Shown: positions 1 through 8,736 of the stretch, piece by piece
Numbering within the stretch: the first letter of the stretch is position 1
Layout of the letters: the number at the start of each line of letters is the position of its first letter
From: Oxalicibacterium solurbis
Lineage (GTDB): Bacteria; Pseudomonadota; Gammaproteobacteria; Burkholderiales; Burkholderiaceae_D
Length of the DNA stretch: 64,000 bases
Reading direction: 5' to 3'
NCBI RefSeq assembly: GCF_014635845.1
Contig: NZ_BMDP01000001.1
Location: 434,001-498,000 of the forward strand
Translations under genes and position numbers: made by a program
The notes under the pieces: generated by a model
Told to the model about the DNA's origin: nothing
The model's input: the letters and a program-made list of their open reading frames with translations, nothing else
The model's database searches: none

Positions 1-482
1 GGGCGTTTTTCGTTAACAATAAAACTTTCCTTATTCAGCGAAAGGTCTATCTGTCGATCTATCTCCGTAGTCTGGCCATTGAAGTAATTTGTGGCTAACT
101 GACCTTGCAAACTGCTTACAGCAATCAGCCCCGAGGCCATATCGGTATCGAAAGTTGAGCTCGTGCTAATAACTACCTCACCCGAGATTTTGAAAAGATC
201 GCCGATAAGAACTTCGACTGAGAAATCCTTTTGCGGGATCTTATAGGTGACGCGCGACAGTGGTCTACGAGTAGACAAAACATAGACCAGCGCCAAAAAA
301 ACTAAAATGATTAACCCATAGTAGCTATATCGATCTTTCTTATAGATGTTGAAAGCATCTGCCAAATCGACACAAAGGTAAAGGACGCCTACTACGCCCA
401 AAAACTTGCCAATAGCCTCGGCAGAAAAAAGAGCGTAACGCCAATATGCTCGCGTTCCTATCGATTCGAAGAAGTACTTCAC
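1..482 (-). CDS. thsA: Thoeris type II effector ThsA, TM-macro protein (3' end outside window)
   Basis: This is the membrane effector of a Thoeris anti-phage system. In type II Thoeris, a macro-domain protein senses the ADP-ribose-type signal made by the TIR partner (known for the family). The first 160 codons are visible. Two hydrophobic segments at about residues 17-37 and 50-67 precede a macro-like domain, with a GDLFKISGEVVISTSSTFDT stretch followed by SLQGQLATNYF, which is characteristic of ThsA macro domains. The start is a GTG at 482 that overlaps the thsB stop in a 4-base GTGA junction, so the two are translationally coupled. The gene runs off the left edge of the window. The Thoeris assignment rests on the combination of TM pair, macro motif and adjacent TIR gene; a related CBASS-like macro effector is the main alternative. 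Confidence 0.72.
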   Translation of the reverse strand, partial: MKYFFESIGTRAYWRYALFSAEAIGKFLGVVGVLYLCVDLADAFNIYKKDRYSYYGLIILVFLALVYVLSTRRPLSRVTYKIPQKDFSVEVLIGDLFKISGEVVISTSSTFDTDMASGLIAVSSLQGQLATNYFNGQTTEIDRQIDLSLNKESFIVNEKR

Positions 483-979
483 AAGCCCAGCCTCGTGTAA
501 ATATGTTGGTTGTAAAAGTAGTCTCCACTCTTTCCTTCATTACGAAGACGCGAAAATTCCAACGGCCAGTTATCTAATGCAAATTCAATGATGTTGTGCT
601 TAAAGGGCACATAAATCACGAGCTCGTTCTTGATCGTCGGCGGACATTTATCGTCAATTTTTCGACTTCCGTTTAGATTTACGCCAACAATGGGCAGCCC
701 TAATTTCAACGCAACCTCAAGCTCCCACTTCACGAACTTCGTCAAGTAGCGGGTGTTCTCGCCAATCAAGACAATTAGCATTTTTGAGTTTGCGAAGCGC
801 TCACGAAGTTGCCGTTTAATACTTTCCTCTTGGCTTGAATCCCGTGCCGTATTCAAATCATGGGCATTATGGAAGTTTAAAGAAAATCCGTCGTTGGCCT
901 TCCATGCAGTCATCAAACGGTAGTAATGCATGTCGTTATCGCCATCGAACGCGATATATGTCTTATTGCGGTAACTCAT
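479..979 (-). CDS. thsB: Thoeris TIR-domain protein ThsB
   Basis: A small (166 aa) stand-alone TIR-like protein of the ThsB/DUF1863 kind, which senses phage infection and converts NAD+ into a nucleotide signal (family knowledge). Visible landmarks are a first strand KTYIAFDGDND at residues 6-16, NFHNAHD around 35-41, the strand MLIVLIGENTRYLTKFV at 67-83, and KWELEVAL at 84-91, where E86 or E88 is the expected catalytic glutamate. The next strand is LPIVGVNLNG. The length matches ThsB proteins, which are about 160-200 residues. It lies immediately upstream of, and overlaps, the macro-domain gene, giving the canonical thsB-thsA pair. A stand-alone TIR-like protein of unknown role is the alternative, but the neighbour makes Thoeris much more likely. 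Confidence 0.78.
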   Translation of the reverse strand: MSYRNKTYIAFDGDNDMHYYRLMTAWKANDGFSLNFHNAHDLNTARDSSQEESIKRQLRERFANSKMLIVLIGENTRYLTKFVKWELEVALKLGLPIVGVNLNGSRKIDDKCPPTIKNELVIYVPFKHNIIEFALDNWPLEFSRLRNEGKSGDYFYNQHIYTRLGL

Positions 980-1108
980 CGAAGCGCCCCCTATGACTAG
1001 TTATTTTTATAGCAATCAAAGTGTAACCCGCGCGACTACAAAAAGTCGACATCGTAGAATTCATACATAGATCGGTGCGCTGCTTGAAAAAAATTAAGCT
1101 GCTGCTAG

Positions 1109-2086
1109 TCACCAGCCGCGGAATAGCACCGAGCGCGCCGTGATACGTTCGCCCGTTGACAGCAGCTGTACCAGCCAATTATTTTTGGAGTTGACGAAGA
1201 CGTTGTTCAGCACGACGTCGAACTTCTTCTTGGATACAACCATAGTCTCGCTGTCCAAGTCAGCCAAAGTACCGGCGAGGTAATCCGGGAGTCTGACCAG
1301 TTCGTCAAAGCGGTGCTTACCGCTCTTCTCAGGAATCTCAAAGCCAAGGGTGGCCAGAGATATTCCAAGATTTTGAGCCTTCCGTTGCTCAGGTGTAGCG
1401 AACTCGATTGCCTGGGTCAGGTAGTACACATATGCCAGGTCGGACACTACGGCATCATGGCGCTCAAAGAGTGCATCTCGGTCAGAAATCCAACGGATTG
1501 CCTTGGCGCTCACAGCCTGATTTAGCATGTTGCAGAGGGTCGCCACCATTGCGGCGACTAGATGAATCTGCCTAGCTAACTTTGCATTCACGCCCTTATG
1601 GCCCAAATCTCGTTCGAAGTCCCTTAGCCGCTTGATGGCACTCTGATGATAATGAATGTCATGGACATCCTGATAGAGAGAAAGACGGTCATTCATGAAG
1701 GATATAGCTCCGGTAACCAGCGATCTCATACCTTCTACGCTCAAATAATCGCGTAGCAATGCTGCATCCCGCCTCATGACGAACGAAATACTAAACGTCA
1801 CAGGTATCTTGCAGGTCAAGTACTGGACTAGGCCCAGCGGAACCTTGCTTGTGTTCTTCAGATCCTTGGGTGCCGCACCAGCTATGTACTCGCAGATGTT
1901 TTCAGCCTTGTCGTGCGGGGCGATGATTACAAAGCTGAAGACGTCGTTACCCTTGTTGACGTCGCCAATGCAATAGTCCGAGACCACTGACCATGGCATG
2001 CCGGCTGGATAGCGAGCGAACCATTGCTTCAACTGCAATCGTGTTGTCGCAGTGGCTTGGACTAAAACGGGAAGCAGGTCAGTCAT
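1109..2086 (-). CDS. Uncharacterised protein paired with the Abi_C gene
   Basis: I do not recognise this 325-residue protein. The ATG at 2086 is preferred to an in-frame TTG two codons upstream. It has no signal peptide or clear membrane segment. The N-terminal part has a strand-like VVSDYCIGD...DVFSFVIIAP stretch. A middle segment contains WISDRDALFERHD, and the C-terminal third contains DELVRLPDYLAGTLADLD. The order of acidic residues in strands is faintly reminiscent of DUF3800-type RNase H-fold proteins, but this is only an impression. It starts 21 bases after the stop of the Abi_C-type gene on the same strand, so the two probably form one operon. Its position between two known defence systems suggests a role in phage defence. 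The 129 bases before thsB hold no gene. Confidence 0.75.
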   Translation of the reverse strand: MTDLLPVLVQATATTRLQLKQWFARYPAGMPWSVVSDYCIGDVNKGNDVFSFVIIAPHDKAENICEYIAGAAPKDLKNTSKVPLGLVQYLTCKIPVTFSISFVMRRDAALLRDYLSVEGMRSLVTGAISFMNDRLSLYQDVHDIHYHQSAIKRLRDFERDLGHKGVNAKLARQIHLVAAMVATLCNMLNQAVSAKAIRWISDRDALFERHDAVVSDLAYVYYLTQAIEFATPEQRKAQNLGISLATLGFEIPEKSGKHRFDELVRLPDYLAGTLADLDSETMVVSKKKFDVVLNNVFVNSKNNWLVQLLSTGERITARSVLFRGW

Positions 2087-2107
2087 GGCCAATGGTAGAG
2101 GTAGAAG

Positions 2108-2944
2108 CTACCTTCCGTGTATTGCCAACTTTGCTAGCAAATAGCTAGCGACCGTGCCAACAGATTCAATTGCTGCCTTAGCCTCAGCATCTGTGAGCGT
2201 CGGCAGCCATGGGCGACCGTGACCAGAGCCCTGCTTGTTTCGGACGCGGTTAATACCAAGCGCAGTAGTAAACAACCCCCGTTCCATTCCGCGAACAGGC
2301 GACTCTCCCTGAACTTCAGGTATTTCCGGAACTGCAAGATCCAGTGCAATAAAGGCCATGCCTAATAAGGTCTGAAAATTGGCACCAGTGGGATAGCTAC
2401 CTCGTATCGTCATGAGCACGTGGGCAGCAGTGGCCTCAAGCAGGTCCTTGCCGGTTCCAGCCACAAGAGCCGCATCCTCGGCGCCTCGTTGAGCACGCCG
2501 CGCATAGCCCAATAGTGCATCAGTCAGCTCTGGGCCACGGAGAGCTGTGAGCACTTTCGGAGCAAGCGTTCCGTCATCGGCAAGGGCAAAGCCGACGCTG
2601 TCGCAGGCCGACCTAGCGTTCGCAATTGCCTCGGAGCCAACGAAATTTGGTGAACCGTCGCGGAAGCCACCACACGCACGAATCTTTCCCAAGAGGCCCA
2701 TGGCGAACTGAGAGGCAGCCATGGGATTGGCTGTCATCGCCTCGTACAGCACAGCCCTGACCCGTTTGGCCTTTCCGATCAGCTGCCCCTGTTGTTTGGG
2801 ATCGAAGGTCGTGAGTCCTGACGCATTAACTTGAAATTCTATATCCGAATGCGATGGCTCTCGATAGCTTCCGCTGTTACCCGAGTCGTCTACCAATTGG
2901 GCAAATGCATGAACGACTGTGTCAGTAATAGGAATGTTCTGCAT
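2108..2944 (-). CDS. Abortive-infection (Abi_C domain, HEPN-like) protein
   Basis: A 278-residue protein whose C-terminal third looks like the Abi_C (abortive infection C-terminus) domain. The key segment at residues 231-246 (INRVRNKQGSGHGRPW) carries an R-N-(x)5-H pattern (R235, H242), the arrangement of catalytic residues in HEPN ribonucleases. It is followed by a helix rich in Ala (TDAEAKAAIESVGTVASYLL) that is typical of the family. The N-terminal region is alpha-helical and unrecognised. The ATG at 2944 is favoured over an upstream in-frame ATG at 3004 because the family-like sequence starts there; this choice is not certain. It is the first gene of a tight two-gene unit with the unrecognised gene downstream. 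Cleavage of RNA during infection is inferred from the domain, not shown. Confidence 0.68.
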   Translation of the reverse strand: MQNIPITDTVVHAFAQLVDDSGNSGSYREPSHSDIEFQVNASGLTTFDPKQQGQLIGKAKRVRAVLYEAMTANPMAASQFAMGLLGKIRACGGFRDGSPNFVGSEAIANARSACDSVGFALADDGTLAPKVLTALRGPELTDALLGYARRAQRGAEDAALVAGTGKDLLEATAAHVLMTIRGSYPTGANFQTLLGMAFIALDLAVPEIPEVQGESPVRGMERGLFTTALGINRVRNKQGSGHGRPWLPTLTDAEAKAAIESVGTVASYLLAKLAIHGR

Positions 2945-3075
2945 AGTGCTGTATCGATAGGGAAATAAACCAATATATGCGATGTGATTCAGCCACCACG
3001 GCATGATTCACCACGCGTTAGCGCCTCACTTCTTGATCAAGAAATGGGCGTATGTTGAAACTCTAATATCTGAAA

Positions 3076-3690
3076 CTAGCGAGATATTTGGTCTGGCACG
3101 TATATTGGCAGTACTCCGTCCAAATACTCAAGGATTGCTACATATGCGTCAAACATTGAACGATAGATGGTTTGATCGATATAAAAGGGATTACCAACTT
3201 TCCCTTGTCCGGTCTTCCTATGAAAGCTTTCGTCAACCATACCCATATTGTGAACTCCAATGTGCCTGACTTGAAACGCGAGTTGAACCGTTTGGATTGA
3301 ACTGGCCACCGGCGCCAGTTCTACTCCCTCAGCCTTTAGTGCCGAAAAAACATCCTCTACTCGCTGAAAGAACCCGAAGGATCGTCCCTGATGGCTATAC
3401 CCGTAGACATCAAACAGTTCTTTGAAAAAGATCTCTATGTCGGAGCAAAGGGATATTACGCAGAACTGAAAGAGTCTTTCATATACGCCTGGGAACATCG
3501 TTTTATAGTCGTAAACCGATTTCACATGCTCGGGCCAATGCATTGCTTGTCTCAAAGAGTCTGGAATAGATCTGTCTTTATCATTATCTGGGGCGTCAAT
3601 AGCGAACATGAACATCGTATTGTTTGTGATCTCCCGAGCTCTATCAAAGTGACGTAAAACTAGATTGTTTGTGAATTCATTGCGTTGCAC
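3076..3690 (-). CDS. Solo HEPN-type protein, putative RNase
   Basis: A 204-residue all-helical protein with an RHIGVHN segment at residues 142-148. This gives the R-x4-H signature (R142, H147) of HEPN ribonucleases, preceded by a helix with paired acidic and aromatic residues (SDIEIFFKELFD at 83-94), as in HEPN proteins of the RiboL-PSP/MAE type. The start is a GTG at 3690 with GGAG six bases upstream. The gene sits 142 bases downstream of the Gabija helicase gene and in the same orientation. It may be an accessory toxin of the same island, or half of a toxin-antitoxin pair whose partner (typically an MNT nucleotidyltransferase) is absent here. No such partner is found next to it. The domain call is by motif only. 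Confidence 0.6.
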   Translation of the reverse strand: MQRNEFTNNLVLRHFDRAREITNNTMFMFAIDAPDNDKDRSIPDSLRQAMHWPEHVKSVYDYKTMFPGVYERLFQFCVISLCSDIEIFFKELFDVYGYSHQGRSFGFFQRVEDVFSALKAEGVELAPVASSIQTVQLAFQVRHIGVHNMGMVDESFHRKTGQGKVGNPFYIDQTIYRSMFDAYVAILEYLDGVLPIYVPDQISR

Positions 3691-3832
3691 GATTTACTCC
3701 AAAGGTTATGGCCGAAAGAGACTCCAAAGTTCGTGTCCGATCTTCGGAAACTGTCACTACTTTACGAGTACTGTAATTTGTCAGGCTTCGCCAAGGGTCG
3801 TTAGAACCTCGTGCTTAGGTTCGATTAAGACG

Positions 3833-5497
3833 TCAAATTGCGTTTTCTGCATAACTAAGAAATTCAGCGTGTTCAGTCCGATCGACATGCCATCTCTTCG
3901 CTTTATCAGGCCGTTCTCTTTGCTCGGCCACTGTCAGAAACAAGCGACGCTTAGCTCGCGAAATTGCAACAAAGAATGTCGACCGCTCTTCCTCCTGATT
4001 TTTCCCAAAAAAAGCTTGTGCTTCAACGCCTAGAACGATTACCGTGTCAAACTCCAATCCTTTGCTCTTGTGAATCGACATGATCCGCACTGCACTATCC
4101 CCGGAAAACGAAGCCAGCGCTGAGACCGGCTCTTCGCCAAACGCCAGCAACTGGTGCACACGAGCCAGTGTCTGTGAGATCAGTTCCTTAAGTCGTTGCG
4201 GCTGAACATATTCAAAGGACATAGCAACGACAGCGTCACGACCTATTTCCTCGATAAGCGCTTGAGTAATGTCGGCGAGATCGTCTCTATCAGCAATATC
4301 TAGTTCACCATCTTTAATCTCGCTCCGTGTATTCGCCAAGAATCGGTTCCACTTCGCGCGCGCTTGATACTCACGTTCGTCATCGAGACCACGGCCAAAG
4401 ACAACTAGGTCAAGAAGGCGGCGGTAAGGTGCCGGCTGGCGCTCGCCCGTGACAACCAGCAGGAAATCGATGATGAGACAGGCAATAGGTTCTGCTGCCA
4501 AATTTTGGTTTGCATCGTCTTCACGATAAGGCACAGCCTGAGCCGTTAGTGCTGCGCATAGTTTTTGGCAGTACAGGCTCTGCTGGTTTCTAACTAAGAT
4601 TGCGATCTCAGAAGGGTTCAAGCATTCATCCTCAATCCACTCGCGAATCTTGGCCGCTACATCAATGGCTTCCAAATCGTCATCATCGAATCGCCAGACT
4701 GCAATCTCGCCCTCGTTCCCTGGGATCGCAGCATCATTCACAGCCCCCGCAGGATCCATGACACGAACCATCGCGTTCTGCATCCGCCGTAATCTAGGTT
4801 TTGAGCGAAAGTTTTGGTAGAGATTAAGTGGAAGTGCCCCAAAGTCCTCAGCATAGGTATTGAAAATGCCTTCTAGCGCTCCGGCCCATCCCATGATGCG
4901 TTGCTTGGTGTCTCCAACGGCCGTCAGAAAAATACCGGTATCCTCAAAGCAGGCCTTAATAAGTCTGTACTGCACAGTTGTGCAATCTTGGAACTCATCG
5001 AGAAAGACGTGACTGTAGGTTTGGCGGATGGCATTACGTGCAATGCGGTTCTTCTCGACGATCTCCACGGCGAGTGGAACCATATCATCGTATGTGATTA
5101 CCCTTCGATGGATTCGATTAGAACCCACTGTGAAATCAGGATCAAGCGCATTCTGTCCAGTCAGCGCCGGGCGGAACCTGTCAATGAGACGCATTGCAAA
5201 AGCGTGAAATGTATGACTGTCGAGCCGTGAAGCTAACTCGTCACCACATCGCTTTTTAACCCGTGCTTTCAAGTTCTGGCTTGCATCGACTTTGAAAGCA
5301 ATGGCAAGGATGCGACGCGGATAGCGACAAGCTCCCGTTCGCAGCAAGAAGTCCGCCCGCTGAGCCAGCATCTCGGTCTTACCCGCCCCGGGACCGGCTG
5401 TTAGTGCGAGATTCCGCCCCGTCTCCTTCGCTGCTGCCAACGCATTCGGCTCAAGTGACGGAACATCAGATGGGAACCATTGTTCCGGGCGAATCAT
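3833..5497 (-). CDS. gajB: Gabija helicase GajB (UvrD-like)
   Basis: A 554-residue superfamily 1A helicase. Visible motifs in order are Walker A GPGAGKT at residues 35-41, motif II VFLDEFQD at 164-171 (D167, E168), the motif III-like VGDTKQRIMGW, motif IV-like YQNFRSKPRLRR, motif V IHKSKGLEFDTVIVLG near 475, and motif VI VAISRAKRRLFL near 510. GajB proteins are short UvrD-like helicases of about 500 residues, and this length fits. It overlaps the upstream OLD-nuclease gene by 4 bases (5494-5497), the usual Gabija gajA-gajB arrangement. In Gabija the pair forms a complex that restricts phage DNA (established). A class 2 OLD/helicase pair is the same thing under an older name. Confidence 0.8.
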   Translation of the reverse strand: MIRPEQWFPSDVPSLEPNALAAAKETGRNLALTAGPGAGKTEMLAQRADFLLRTGACRYPRRILAIAFKVDASQNLKARVKKRCGDELASRLDSHTFHAFAMRLIDRFRPALTGQNALDPDFTVGSNRIHRRVITYDDMVPLAVEIVEKNRIARNAIRQTYSHVFLDEFQDCTTVQYRLIKACFEDTGIFLTAVGDTKQRIMGWAGALEGIFNTYAEDFGALPLNLYQNFRSKPRLRRMQNAMVRVMDPAGAVNDAAIPGNEGEIAVWRFDDDDLEAIDVAAKIREWIEDECLNPSEIAILVRNQQSLYCQKLCAALTAQAVPYREDDANQNLAAEPIACLIIDFLLVVTGERQPAPYRRLLDLVVFGRGLDDEREYQARAKWNRFLANTRSEIKDGELDIADRDDLADITQALIEEIGRDAVVAMSFEYVQPQRLKELISQTLARVHQLLAFGEEPVSALASFSGDSAVRIMSIHKSKGLEFDTVIVLGVEAQAFFGKNQEEERSTFFVAISRAKRRLFLTVAEQRERPDKAKRWHVDRTEHAEFLSYAENAI

Positions 5498-7437
5498 TCC
5501 GGAAGATCCTCCAACTTGCCCTCAATGGAATCAAACATTCGATCGAGAACCTGAGGTAGAGTCTCTAGCAATTCATCGTCGTCGAGCTCAGCTATTGCGC
5601 GAATGTGCCAAGTCGGCTTGCTGCCAATCTTAAACCTACTGTGGTATGAGTCAAAGTATTCAAGTTGACCGTCTTTGTACTGACCTCCAACTATGTCGTG
5701 ATTCTTGCCAAGGACTGCTTTAAGCATTGCCTCGTCAGGCTCCACAAGCTGATCGTCTTCAACCTTGTACGCATCCGGGTACGCCATCAGCATCATGAAA
5801 TCGAGATCAAGAGGCGTCGAGAAGAATACGCCCAGTTTTTCCAAGCGTTCAATCCATCCTTCATCATTCACCATGATCCCGTGGTCTGAATTCCACACAG
5901 GAATACTATCAATATCCTCGTTCGTCAGATCGTTCGGCTCGATGTTCGCATAGGCAAGAAGGTTTTTTGCAGCATACCGGATACGCCCCCAGCCGCCTTG
6001 ATGGCGCGCCACGTCAAGATCCAGGAGGGTCACATATGGAATATCTAAAGCGTTCAGCAAGCGCCAAAAATGATTGACATGCCGACCACCAAGCGGGACC
6101 ACCGAAACAGATGCATCATCGGTCAGGATACCTCGCGCGGCCATCAACCGTGGAAGAACAATCTCTTCACTATCGCCTTCACCAAGAACAACTAGGCGGG
6201 AAAAATACAGTTCCGGGAAGGCCTGTATGCCCTCACGCACATACTTGTGCGCAACTTCTCCTTCCGGCAATACGATAAGACGCACGCTGGTGGTTCGGTC
6301 ATCGTTGAGGCGGAAATACCGAATCGATTCAGGAGGCACCCGTCGCAATAGGGAGGGCGAGTGCGTTGCTATTAGCGCCTGAGCACTATCATCTTCCGAA
6401 AACGCGGTCATGGCCTTAATGACACGTCCAAGGTAGTGAGGCGAAAGGCTGTTCTCAGGTTCTTCAACGGCAATCAAAGTGAATATCGCCGGTCTCAGTT
6501 TGTCGATGTTAAATGCGTCCAGATTACCGCTCAAAACCTCGCTGCCGATATCATGCATGGCTAGCACGAGTGATATGTAGAGCAGTGATTGCTGCCCATC
6601 ACTGAGCCGGGAAAAATCTACAAGCGATTCGCCATGGCCTGGCGAGAACCCGACGCTCAGATGCTTGAGCAGGTTTTCGATTTCGCTTGCGGCGAACGAA
6701 ACGGAAGGGCTCGCATAATAAGCGCCCTTGTGTAATGCAGCCCATTTCTTGGCCAGCGACTCGCCGATACTCTCGATGGCGCCATTACTCTTCAAGGAAC
6801 CCTCGATTTGGCCTGTAAGGTCGCGAATATCATCACGCTCTGCAGTCCAATCTGCAGCTCGCAGGGCTCGGCCGAGCAATGCGTTCGCTGAATAGGAAAT
6901 GTGGTCGGCTGGATTGCGACGCGCTGGAATATAGTGAACCTGAATCGAATTTCGATCTTGCTTAGAGACGCGACTCTCTTCAACAGGCACACCTTCTTCA
7001 TCTTCTCGAATGACGCAGGTAAAAGTTTCCTCGATATCGCCGTCGAGATCGATGGTGGCTTTTAACCTGAATCGCATACGAGCAGGGCCATCCTTCGCAA
7101 CAAGCTGCATATGCGCAAAGTTGCCCGGAACAGCTGGCAGTTCGTCATCCTCGGCATCATCTGTCTCCAACTCGGGGAACTGGAAATCAGCCTCAAGCCA
7201 GAGCTCTCGGCTTTCAGGGGGGGCTCCAGCGACTTCGTCGGAAGGGATGTGGAAGTCTGAAGACTTGATCCTGCGAAGGTTGGGGTCCAAACTGAACATG
7301 CGAGCCAGTGCCTGTAACACGGCAGTCTTTCCTGCACCATTGGGACCAAGAAGGAATGTCAAACCGTCCAAGCCAACAGTGACTGGCGATAGACCAAACG
7401 AGCGAAAGCCCGACAAACGTAGATTTGTCAATTTCAT
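5494..7437 (-). CDS. gajA: Gabija nuclease GajA (OLD family ATPase-TOPRIM)
   Basis: A 647-residue OLD-family protein combining an ABC-type ATPase with a TOPRIM nuclease. Walker A GPNGAGKT is at residues 31-38, the signature LSDGQQSLL at 278-286, Walker B LIAVEEPENS at 321-330, and the H-loop ATHSPSLL near 357-364. The TOPRIM domain begins at LVVLGEGDSEE (E420) and continues with the LLDLD acidic pair (D473, D475). The C-terminal 170 residues contain further acidic clusters. Typical GajA is about 580 residues, so this one is somewhat longer. The ATG at 7437 has GGAG at a good distance. In Gabija, ATP and nucleotide levels gate DNA cleavage by GajA (known). It is the first gene of the leftward defence array and the one nearest to comEC. 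Confidence 0.82.
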   Translation of the reverse strand: MKLTNLRLSGFRSFGLSPVTVGLDGLTFLLGPNGAGKTAVLQALARMFSLDPNLRRIKSSDFHIPSDEVAGAPPESRELWLEADFQFPELETDDAEDDELPAVPGNFAHMQLVAKDGPARMRFRLKATIDLDGDIEETFTCVIREDEEGVPVEESRVSKQDRNSIQVHYIPARRNPADHISYSANALLGRALRAADWTAERDDIRDLTGQIEGSLKSNGAIESIGESLAKKWAALHKGAYYASPSVSFAASEIENLLKHLSVGFSPGHGESLVDFSRLSDGQQSLLYISLVLAMHDIGSEVLSGNLDAFNIDKLRPAIFTLIAVEEPENSLSPHYLGRVIKAMTAFSEDDSAQALIATHSPSLLRRVPPESIRYFRLNDDRTTSVRLIVLPEGEVAHKYVREGIQAFPELYFSRLVVLGEGDSEEIVLPRLMAARGILTDDASVSVVPLGGRHVNHFWRLLNALDIPYVTLLDLDVARHQGGWGRIRYAAKNLLAYANIEPNDLTNEDIDSIPVWNSDHGIMVNDEGWIERLEKLGVFFSTPLDLDFMMLMAYPDAYKVEDDQLVEPDEAMLKAVLGKNHDIVGGQYKDGQLEYFDSYHSRFKIGSKPTWHIRAIAELDDDELLETLPQVLDRMFDSIEGKLEDLPE

Positions 7438-7707
7438 CAGATACTCCGTGAATATTTCATACCGCCAATTCGCCGGAGCATGATTACTTCAACGCATACC
7501 TGCGCAGCTATGGGCAATATGGGAGACAAAGTCCCAAAACGCTTTAATTCGTAACGACCAAACTTGAGGCTGAGAAACTGCTAATGTACTTGTTTGCATT
7601 ATGGAAACTAACCCCATAAATATGGGATTAGTTTAATAGTGTAGCCTTATCGCATCGCCACAGAAAATGTTGCCAATATAAAAAACATAGATGAAATATA
7701 TTCCTCC
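7438..7707. other. AT-rich spacer between gajA and the comEC junction
   Basis: These 270 bases contain no convincing gene. They are AT-richer than the chromosome to the right and must hold the promoter for the leftward defence genes, although I could not single out a strong -35/-10 pair. A nearly perfect 13-base inverted repeat lies at 7605-7634. No integrase, transposase or tRNA fragment is present here. Confidence 0.5.
7605..7634. repeat. 13-base imperfect inverted repeat in the island end
   Basis: AAACTAACCCCAT at 7605-7617 and ATGGGATTAGTTT at 7622-7634 are inverted copies with one mismatch and a 4-base loop. No run of T follows, so it is not a standard terminator. It could be an operator for the defence array or part of the recombination end of the island. 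Confidence 0.6.
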
Positions 7708-8736
7708 TCAATACGCAACACAATTTTTGGTCAGATAAATTACACACAAGGTGCGCTGCGCCGGAACGCCCGCGCCGGCCAGCAGCACATAGATGACAGC
7801 CGCCGATACCCCCGCCAAGGCTGCCGCCTTCTGCGCCGGCAGGCGCAACGGCAACTGCATGCCGGTAAAGAACGAACGCCGCCACAAGAAGAAAACGATG
7901 CCGGCAAACATCGCCGCGATCATCGTGATGTGCAGGCCGGAAATCGAAATCAGATGGCCGATGCCGGTACGGTTGAAGACGTTCCAGCTTTCCTGATCCA
8001 CCGCGCGCTGATCACCGACCACGAGCGCGACGATCACGCCGGCATACGGCTTGCCTTCCAGAGTGTGCTGTACACGCTCACGCAGCCAGCCGCGGCTGCG
8101 CTCGACGACGGCGCGAAATCCCGGCACGAATGCATCCAGCCGTGCATTGGCATGCTCGCCCTGCGGCCCTGCCCGCACGTAACCGGTCGCGCGCACGTTC
8201 TGTTCCAGCAGCCATTGCTCGTAATCGAAACCGTGGGGATTCGCATTGCCATGCGGACGGCGCAGGCGCACCGTCAGGCGCCAGCGTTCGCCCGGCTGTA
8301 CGGCGACGCTCTGCTGAACCGTTTCGTCATCAAAGGAGGAGTACCACGACAACGCGATGTGCGAGGGTATGGCTGGCGTCTCGCCATCGACTGGCAATAC
8401 TTTTTCGACGGCGAATCGGAAACGCAGACCACGTGTGAAATGGTCGGGAAGACTATCGATCGTTCCGACAAGCGTGACATCGCGTCCTTCCCATTCGCGC
8501 GACAATTCCTGCGACAGGTAATGATGCGCAAACAGCGCCGCCCATGCGAAACCGAGCGACAAGCCGGCCGCGATCAACAAAGGAACACGTACTCTCGCTT
8601 GCGTGACGATACGGGCAACGCCGATCGCCAACGCTCCGAACGCGCACAACAGAAGAAGTACCGGCCACGACGGCAGCGTCGCCTGCGTCTGCAACCAGCC
8701 CGCACCGACGACGAAGCCGATGATCGCGCTGCGCAT
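7708..8736 (-). pseudogene. comEC: Truncated competence channel ComEC, interrupted by defence island
   Basis: ComEC/Rec2 is the inner-membrane DNA-uptake channel, normally about 750-850 residues. Here only the N-terminal part survives: TM helices near the start (VVGAGWLQ..., LLLLCAFGALAIGVA), the DUF4131-like soluble region, the GTGIGHLISISGLH stretch that opens the Competence domain, and a helix ending LLAGAGVPAQRTL. After this last leucine codon (about 7747) the frame continues for 12 unrelated residues (CVIYLTKNCVAY) and stops inside AT-rich island DNA. The OB-fold remainder and the metallo-beta-lactamase domain are missing. The ATG is 6 bases after the tatD stop, so it was the last gene of the lolC-lolD-tatD-comEC run. 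Loss of DNA uptake through ComEC is inferred. Confidence 0.85.

Follow-up and report, generated by a model that had tools for sequence, protein, structure and literature searches.

It is an open question, studied for example through comM of Acinetobacter and the prophages of pneumococcus (PMC11472951, PMC12637031), whether mobile elements sabotage competence as a means of avoiding curing; PMC12637031 describes the curing hypothesis. The comM gene is hit both by a Tn7-like element with TnsF (Tn6022/AbaR) and by a tyrosine recombinase element, Tsy (PMC10293859), and the A. baumannii copy is interrupted by AbaR as well as by loci for CBASS and Zorya (PMC11472951). Transformation is only reduced when comM is lost; deletion of comEC in A. 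baumannii, in contrast, serves as a non-transformable control (PMC11472951). The splitting of comEC as such is already in print, because its interruption by transposable elements is reported for Piscirickettsia salmonis (PMC12955456). The locus compared here with these systems lies in a 64,000-nucleotide stretch of Oxalicibacterium solurbis DNA (hereafter the window; positions 434,001 to 498,000 of contig NZ_BMDP01000001.1, assembly GCF_014635845.1, or G000:C1:434001-498000, where G000 is this genome). Window positions 1-7745 form the right end of a 27.3-kb defence island that splits comEC, and most of this island lies to the left of the window. In the same family, unrelated types of island split comEC repeatedly; this finding, which lies outside the coordinates of an initial annotation of the window, is the more surprising result and the part most likely to interest the specialist.

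The G+C content per kb is 44-54% at 1-8000, as opposed to 57.5-64.5% over the following 6 kb, and the AT-richer left end contains seven minus-strand genes of defence type, as the initial annotation had noted, arranged as three operon-like pairs and one single gene spaced 129-142 nucleotides apart (computed with the later starts of genes D and E, described below). The border that had been placed at 7745 is borne out by the adjoining comEC fragment (7746-8736, minus strand; PF13567, PF03772), which corresponds to approximately codons 1-332 of an 805-codon gene by its match to the intact comEC of the relative G008. Most of the best matches to this fragment end at its nucleotides 986-992, equivalent to window 7745-7751, and none of the DNA matches in the relatives searched extends past nucleotide 992. 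Extension of the sequence leftward reveals the other end that had been expected there, namely the second half of comEC at G000:C1:413055-414476, 27.25 kb away, and in G008 both halves map end to end on a single 805-codon gene. Because the halves touch in G008 and the DNA matches end at nucleotide 992, the island (approximately C1:414475-441745) is located inside comEC rather than beside it, which refines the initial placement at comEC. G008 is the empty, intact site for the island and other relatives hold other contents, so the same genes are not fixed at this place in all relatives. The right end of the element (7438-7745, without strand), which was read from the sequence with its border taken from the comEC comparison, has the word TGTTGCGTAT in common, in opposite orientation, with the left end, and a tRNA scan of the island flanks found none. 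The locus is a real defence island with well-defined borders, which by its insertion necessarily leaves the strain with a truncated ComEC.

To survey the family, the intact 805-residue ComEC protein was used as a query against 294 genomes at a match threshold of E 1e-8. comEC is matched in 282 of them and, among the matches listed, nearly all cover the full length of the gene in a single open frame. Re-examination of 54 genomes, comprising all 50 with at least two matches and four with one lower-scoring match, reveals that comEC is split by insertion in at least eight of the 294, as confirmed by reading the sequence, and that these insertions represent nine elements; the survey covers comEC alone, with no control gene to give a base rate of splitting. 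Genomes with a single partial match may conceal additional splits, and eight is thus a minimum. The insertions are located at codon ~332 in G000, ~264-269 in G001, ~249 in G009, G014, G827 and G930, 244-249 in G035 and 169 in G951. G014 contains two elements in comEC, with the far half continuing on another contig, and the halves in G035, G930 and G951 lie on different contigs. Genomes in which comEC breaks off at a contig end or close to one were excluded from this count (G004, G029, G033, G720, G760, G879, G890 and G920; the contig ends of G033 and G720 were read and the other breaks were judged by coordinates), as were those with a frameshifted or error-ridden-looking comEC, among them G755, G770, G785, G808, G897 and G931. 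Additionally, a partial second copy of comEC is present 0.2-14 kb from the intact copy in G847, G926, G821, G953, G026 and G779, and these copies may be scars left by elements, or may belong to elements that supply a comEC end of their own.

The nine elements comprise four Tn7-like elements at codon ~249, a fifth assigned to this type by its ends, two elements with large serine recombinases and two with recombinase trios. The Tn7-like genes of G009 match PF08722/PF08721 (TnsA), PF05621 (TniB), PF06527 (TniQ) and PF15978 (TnsD) above cut-off, and its TnsB scores 20.9 bits with PF09299 against a cut-off of 21.7. Homologues of the G009 TnsA, TnsB, TnsC and TniQ are detected by tblastn in G014, G827 and G930 at the same insertion place. 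The element ends of G035 resemble the Tn7-like ones at this place; no tns gene is listed in the stretches examined, and the genome has no TnsB match at E 1e-60. A large serine recombinase lies at the junction in G001 (by Pfam) and G014 (52.6% identical), and G951 contains three open reading frames with tyrosine recombinase motifs recognized by eye, together with one marginal library match.

The cargo of the other islands, as judged from ten chosen proteins submitted to PADLOC, includes a CBASS effector, a cyclase and a JAB protein in G009, DSR2-like and PD-Lambda-4-like proteins in G827, GajA and GajB in G035 (matching other models than those of the present island), HamB of Hachiman with one further protein that has no match in G930, and candidate PDC-S28 in G014. 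The G001 island carries metal-resistance genes, and its ChrA is 85% identical to the ChrA of the present island. In the Tn7-like elements of G009, G014, G827, G930, G750 and G715, an extra protein, with a DUF4096 match in G009, adjoins TniQ. Its candidacy as the comEC selector is unsupported, as the protein also occurs in G750 and G715, both of which have an intact comEC. The C-terminal part of TniQ is the better lead for comEC selection, because the G750 TniQ matches the comEC-targeting TniQ of G014 over the first 308 residues only, and the shared codon provides a defined target site for the Tn7-like clade.

The left end of the O. solurbis island contains three consecutive tyrosine recombinase genes (376 residues, 571 residues and a split third) and a fourth gene of 166 residues. 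The Cupriavidus plasmid pMOL28 has the same four-gene layout in intact form (381, 552, 637 and 166 residues), with the small fourth gene of equal length in both; the present element differs in that its third gene is split by a nested transposon and in its location in comEC. The first part of the third recombinase shares 42% identity with an annotated pMOL28 recombinase, and library matches of its two parts are either absent or sub-threshold. We presume, in addition, a resemblance of the trio element to the Tn554 family. The third gene is broken by a 13.2-kb insert with the 12-bp inverted repeat TGAGTATTCGCA and a CATAGC repeat at its bounds, which is of IS21 type, with IstB and a transposase as a pair inside it, and which carries arsenic and chromate genes (ArsB, an ArsC-type protein, ChrA and ChrB). 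The layout thus matches that of a trio element, but only two of the three recombinase genes are intact, and because of this interruption the parent element looks derelict. Within the insert, at L002:5727-7765, the gene of a 516-residue LA2681-type HEPN protein adjoins that of a 154-residue Rv2179c-like 3'-5' exoribonuclease, the latter named from a weak match under cut-off; PADLOC gives no match for either, and the two genes are a possible unlisted defence pair.

In the window, the defence cargo begins with a Gabija pair, in which GajA, an ABC-type ATPase and TOPRIM nuclease (5494-7437, minus strand; PADLOC GajA 883 bits, PF13304, PF20469), is adjacent to GajB, a UvrD-like helicase (3833-5497, minus strand; PADLOC GajB 720 bits, PF00580, PF13361). 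Both genes are full length and overlap by 4 nucleotides, and no difference from Gabija is seen. A Thoeris type II pair occupies the other side, with the TIR protein ThsB (479-979, minus strand; PADLOC ThsB 263 bits, PF08937 1e-18) and the macro-domain effector ThsA (1-482, minus strand; PADLOC 498 bits, PF20016 ThsA_Macro 5e-49), whose genes likewise overlap by 4 nucleotides and show no difference from the type. Full-length ThsA has 292 residues, of which the N-terminal 160 lie in the window and the rest to its left, and hydrophobic stretches are recognizable by eye in its translation. The domain searches with Pfam and PADLOC uphold both assignments of the initial annotation rather than remove them, and on the profile matches the predicted Gabija and Thoeris II systems are confirmed as ordinary. 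The observation that these two known systems bracket three genes that no named system explains also holds, since PADLOC gives no match for genes C, D and E.

Gene C (3076-3690, minus strand) encodes a 204-residue protein with the motif RHIGxHN, which is probably a HEPN protein. No family match was found in Pfam, PADLOC, NCBIfam or PHROGs, nor any relative in viral contigs. The single relative found is on a Pantoea plasmid and conserves RHIGxHN; D and E are not present in that plasmid record. In genome searches of 398 genomes (phylum) and 274 genomes (class), sets that partly overlap, gene C occurs in its own genome only. It is a rare singleton, separate from D and E.

Gene D (2108-2944, minus strand) encodes a protein with a C-terminal Abi_C domain (PF14355, 2e-14; 53.7 bits against a gathering score of 24), in agreement with the initial annotation, and gene E (1109-2086, minus strand), 21 nucleotides away, encodes a 325-residue protein of an unnamed family. 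The HEPN motif is defined as R-x4-6-H, and the RNKxGxGH of D, which is invariant in eight aligned sequences, fits it. The model of D (predicted local distance difference test score, pLDDT, 59; predicted template modelling score, pTM, 0.49) gives HEPN domains as its top Foldseek matches, with probabilities of 0.97 and 0.85 and weak E-values (0.12; 0.1 or worse). For E (pLDDT 67), the six best Foldseek matches are RNase H-type nucleases with E-values of 0.1 or worse and TM-scores of 0.12-0.34, so that an RNase H-like fold is only suggested. E has no match in Pfam, PADLOC, NCBIfam or PHROGs and D none in PADLOC, NCBIfam or PHROGs, Abi_C being its only assignment; a sequence search of the PDB with both gave nothing credible, and neither relatives of E in viral contigs nor D in phage records were found. 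The identification of E as a DUF3800 protein is unsupported (one profile comparison gave a probability of 0.9%, with no Pfam match). D thus has the domain and the HEPN-type motif of the Abi_C family, but differs in being joined in one clade to E, for which the libraries searched contain no described family.

A genome-wide scan with E returned 14 loci, of which one 28-residue match was set aside, and four are close relatives (86-91% identity), labelled Rhodoferax, Burkholderia, Halopseudomonas and a metagenome-assembled genome of Gemmatimonadetes. In all four, D (84-94% identity) ends 14-16 nucleotides before E. Three of the four are independent, because two of them, L035 and L036, are 97.6% identical over 11.9 kb; that these two carry the labels Halopseudomonas and Gemmatimonadetes points to a likely mis-binned contig. 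The unit itself (1101-2945, minus strand) shows 82-88% DNA identity to L033, L034, L035 and L036, and the similarity begins at the D start or at most 50 bp before it and stops just past E, with borders at 1098-1102 and at 2945-2950 (2994 in L035 and L036). The ratio of nonsynonymous to synonymous substitution rates (dN/dS) is 0.06-0.14 in D and E (12 comparisons, six per gene, among four genomes), and dS is alike for the two genes within each genome pair. D and E have moved jointly and are under purifying selection, and, with their sharp borders, they form a mobile two-gene unit that moves by itself.

A third gene, F, is intact after E in Burkholderia sp. Bp9143 (L034); it has a HEPN-like motif by eye, matches one PHROG of unknown function and has no Pfam or PADLOC match. 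Only a stub of F is present in Halopseudomonas and in the window (1044-1087, minus strand; the local alignment scores 47, whereas 300 shuffles reach at most 27). In G127 (L055 6013-8749), D is followed by a broken F, with a stub of the E start between them. Since F is intact in Burkholderia, reduced to stubs elsewhere and accompanied by D in G127, D-E-F is probably the older order, with parts lost differently. The break of F in G127 is an insertion that resembles a transposase gene, by eye.

Beyond the close relatives, E proteins are distant (35-41% identity). A zeta-toxin-like kinase gene followed by an E-family gene is observed in L025, L028, L037, L039, L042, L043 and L044, from Rhizobiales. 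In the other distant loci the partner is an LmuB-like gene in one and a different gene, or none that is clear, in the rest. Defence genes recur beside E: in Sphingobium these are annotated as helicase, AAA ATPase and AbiGi antitoxin, in Halopseudomonas they are DarTG and candidate PDC-S21, and in Rhizobium freirei LmuB. E thereby links several defence neighbourhoods.

The most likely role of D is that of a HEPN ribonuclease effector, with E as an accessory partner, either nuclease or regulator, that is missing from some D loci. A toxin-antitoxin pair, in which E restrains the HEPN RNase toxin D and other E proteins restrain zeta-type kinases, would account for the tight two-gene order (14-21 nucleotides apart in five D-E loci) and for the zeta-toxin-like open reading frame that ends 6-7 nucleotides before E in seven of the 17 distant loci examined, although Pfam was run on one of these seven and E is broken or cut by a contig end in three. 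However, only four of the 12 D loci examined have E, with no E match in the remaining eight; G127 retains D after the loss of most of E; E occurs without D or a zeta-like open reading frame in Pseudomonas and Comamonas; and E is large, with many invariant residues, which is unusual for an antitoxin, so this interpretation is doubtful. It is highly improbable that C, D and E, or five genes including Gabija, constitute one larger system as their shared strand, contiguity and gaps of 131-142 nucleotides might imply: C, Gabija and Thoeris are absent within 7-8 kb on either side of all four close D-E loci, the DNA similarity ends at the D-E borders, and C was found only in its own genome among the 398 and 274 searched, and in one plasmid record that lacks D and E. 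The close D-E loci without C and the similarity borders lead us to reject C, D and E as a single system. The middle of the window, proposed initially as the place for a new system, therefore contains a mobile pair and a separate singleton rather than one system. Both C and D-E may have an antiviral action, and the sequence of D-E, which is compact, mobile and unnamed, makes it a sound candidate for inclusion in defence screens as a new small unit.

With regard to the island as a whole, a defence-carrying trio element resides in comEC and islands split this gene repeatedly; the explanation that we consider probable is that they guard themselves from curing in this way. A site-specific three-tyrosine-recombinase element has inserted into the conserved coding stretch at codon ~332 and carries the stack of Gabija, gene C, the D-E pair and Thoeris II. 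As the insertion cuts ComEC, the inner-membrane DNA-uptake channel, we infer a loss of transformation that should shield the element from replacement through homologous recombination with an empty site, and the defence genes would repay the host. Tn7-like and large serine recombinase elements have reached the same outcome independently in the same family. That the same gene is cut by unrelated elements with other cargo suggests that mobile elements repeatedly disarm the machinery able to remove them, an adaptive reading held with moderate confidence. Alternatively, comEC may be a passive landing site, in which conserved motifs offer a stable target, transformation is unused, its loss is costless and no conflict over curing exists. 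Many integrases aim at conserved coding DNA, and most of the insertions lie in or beside conserved comEC motifs; the various transposable elements at non-identical positions in P. salmonis comEC (PMC12955456) are also consistent with this possibility. However, the insertions in this one gene come from three element types that are unrelated, and comEC is retained in most lineages (282 of 294 matched, with nearly all of the matches listed spanning the whole gene), and a passive site is thus entertained only tentatively.

Several observations weigh against the explanation by escape from curing. These species are not known to be naturally competent, so comEC may simply be dispensable and tolerant of insertion; the insertions are confirmed in only eight of 294 genomes, with no control gene surveyed alike. 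Two of the six closest TnsB matches (G750 and G715) are in genomes with an intact comEC, and the Tn7-like clade is therefore also found outside comEC. The metal-resistance cargo of G001 leaves the universality of defence cargo not established, and the cargo is known from ten chosen proteins, of which single ones do not prove whole systems. The class of the G035 element is read from its end sequences, tns genes not having been found, and the ends of the Tn7-like elements are without established direct repeats. A broader proposal, which is possible but speculative, is that comEC is an unrecognised hub where at least three unrelated element classes independently switch off natural transformation and deliver defence cargo, and that E is the constant member of an undescribed modular family pairing with exchangeable effectors (HEPN Abi_C, zeta-type kinase and LmuB-like ATPase). 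As the family includes a majority of genomes that retain comEC and others in which different islands split it, and because a comEC deletion is non-transformable while comM loss only lowers transformation, the hypothesis of conflict between element and uptake machinery is directly testable.

In the literature searched, with subscription papers outside its scope, no paper naming both TniQ and ComEC was found, and among the matches listed no other paper presents comEC, by its title or the start of its abstract, as the target of such islands. The P. salmonis case is alike in that comEC is split by mobile DNA. There, comEC is reported to be eroded, with no intact copy, and to be interrupted by various transposable elements whose positions are not identical (PMC12955456), and neither hotspot nor defense appears as a word in the main text; here, the gene is split by large islands, of which four (five with G035) are at the same place. 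The comM-targeting elements are alike in that elements of unrelated types all hit a conserved coding motif of a single competence gene, according to PMC10293859, whose main text does not contain the word comEC. The present islands differ from them in that large serine recombinases form a further class at comEC, and in that the target is the channel itself, whose loss should abolish transformation rather than lower it.

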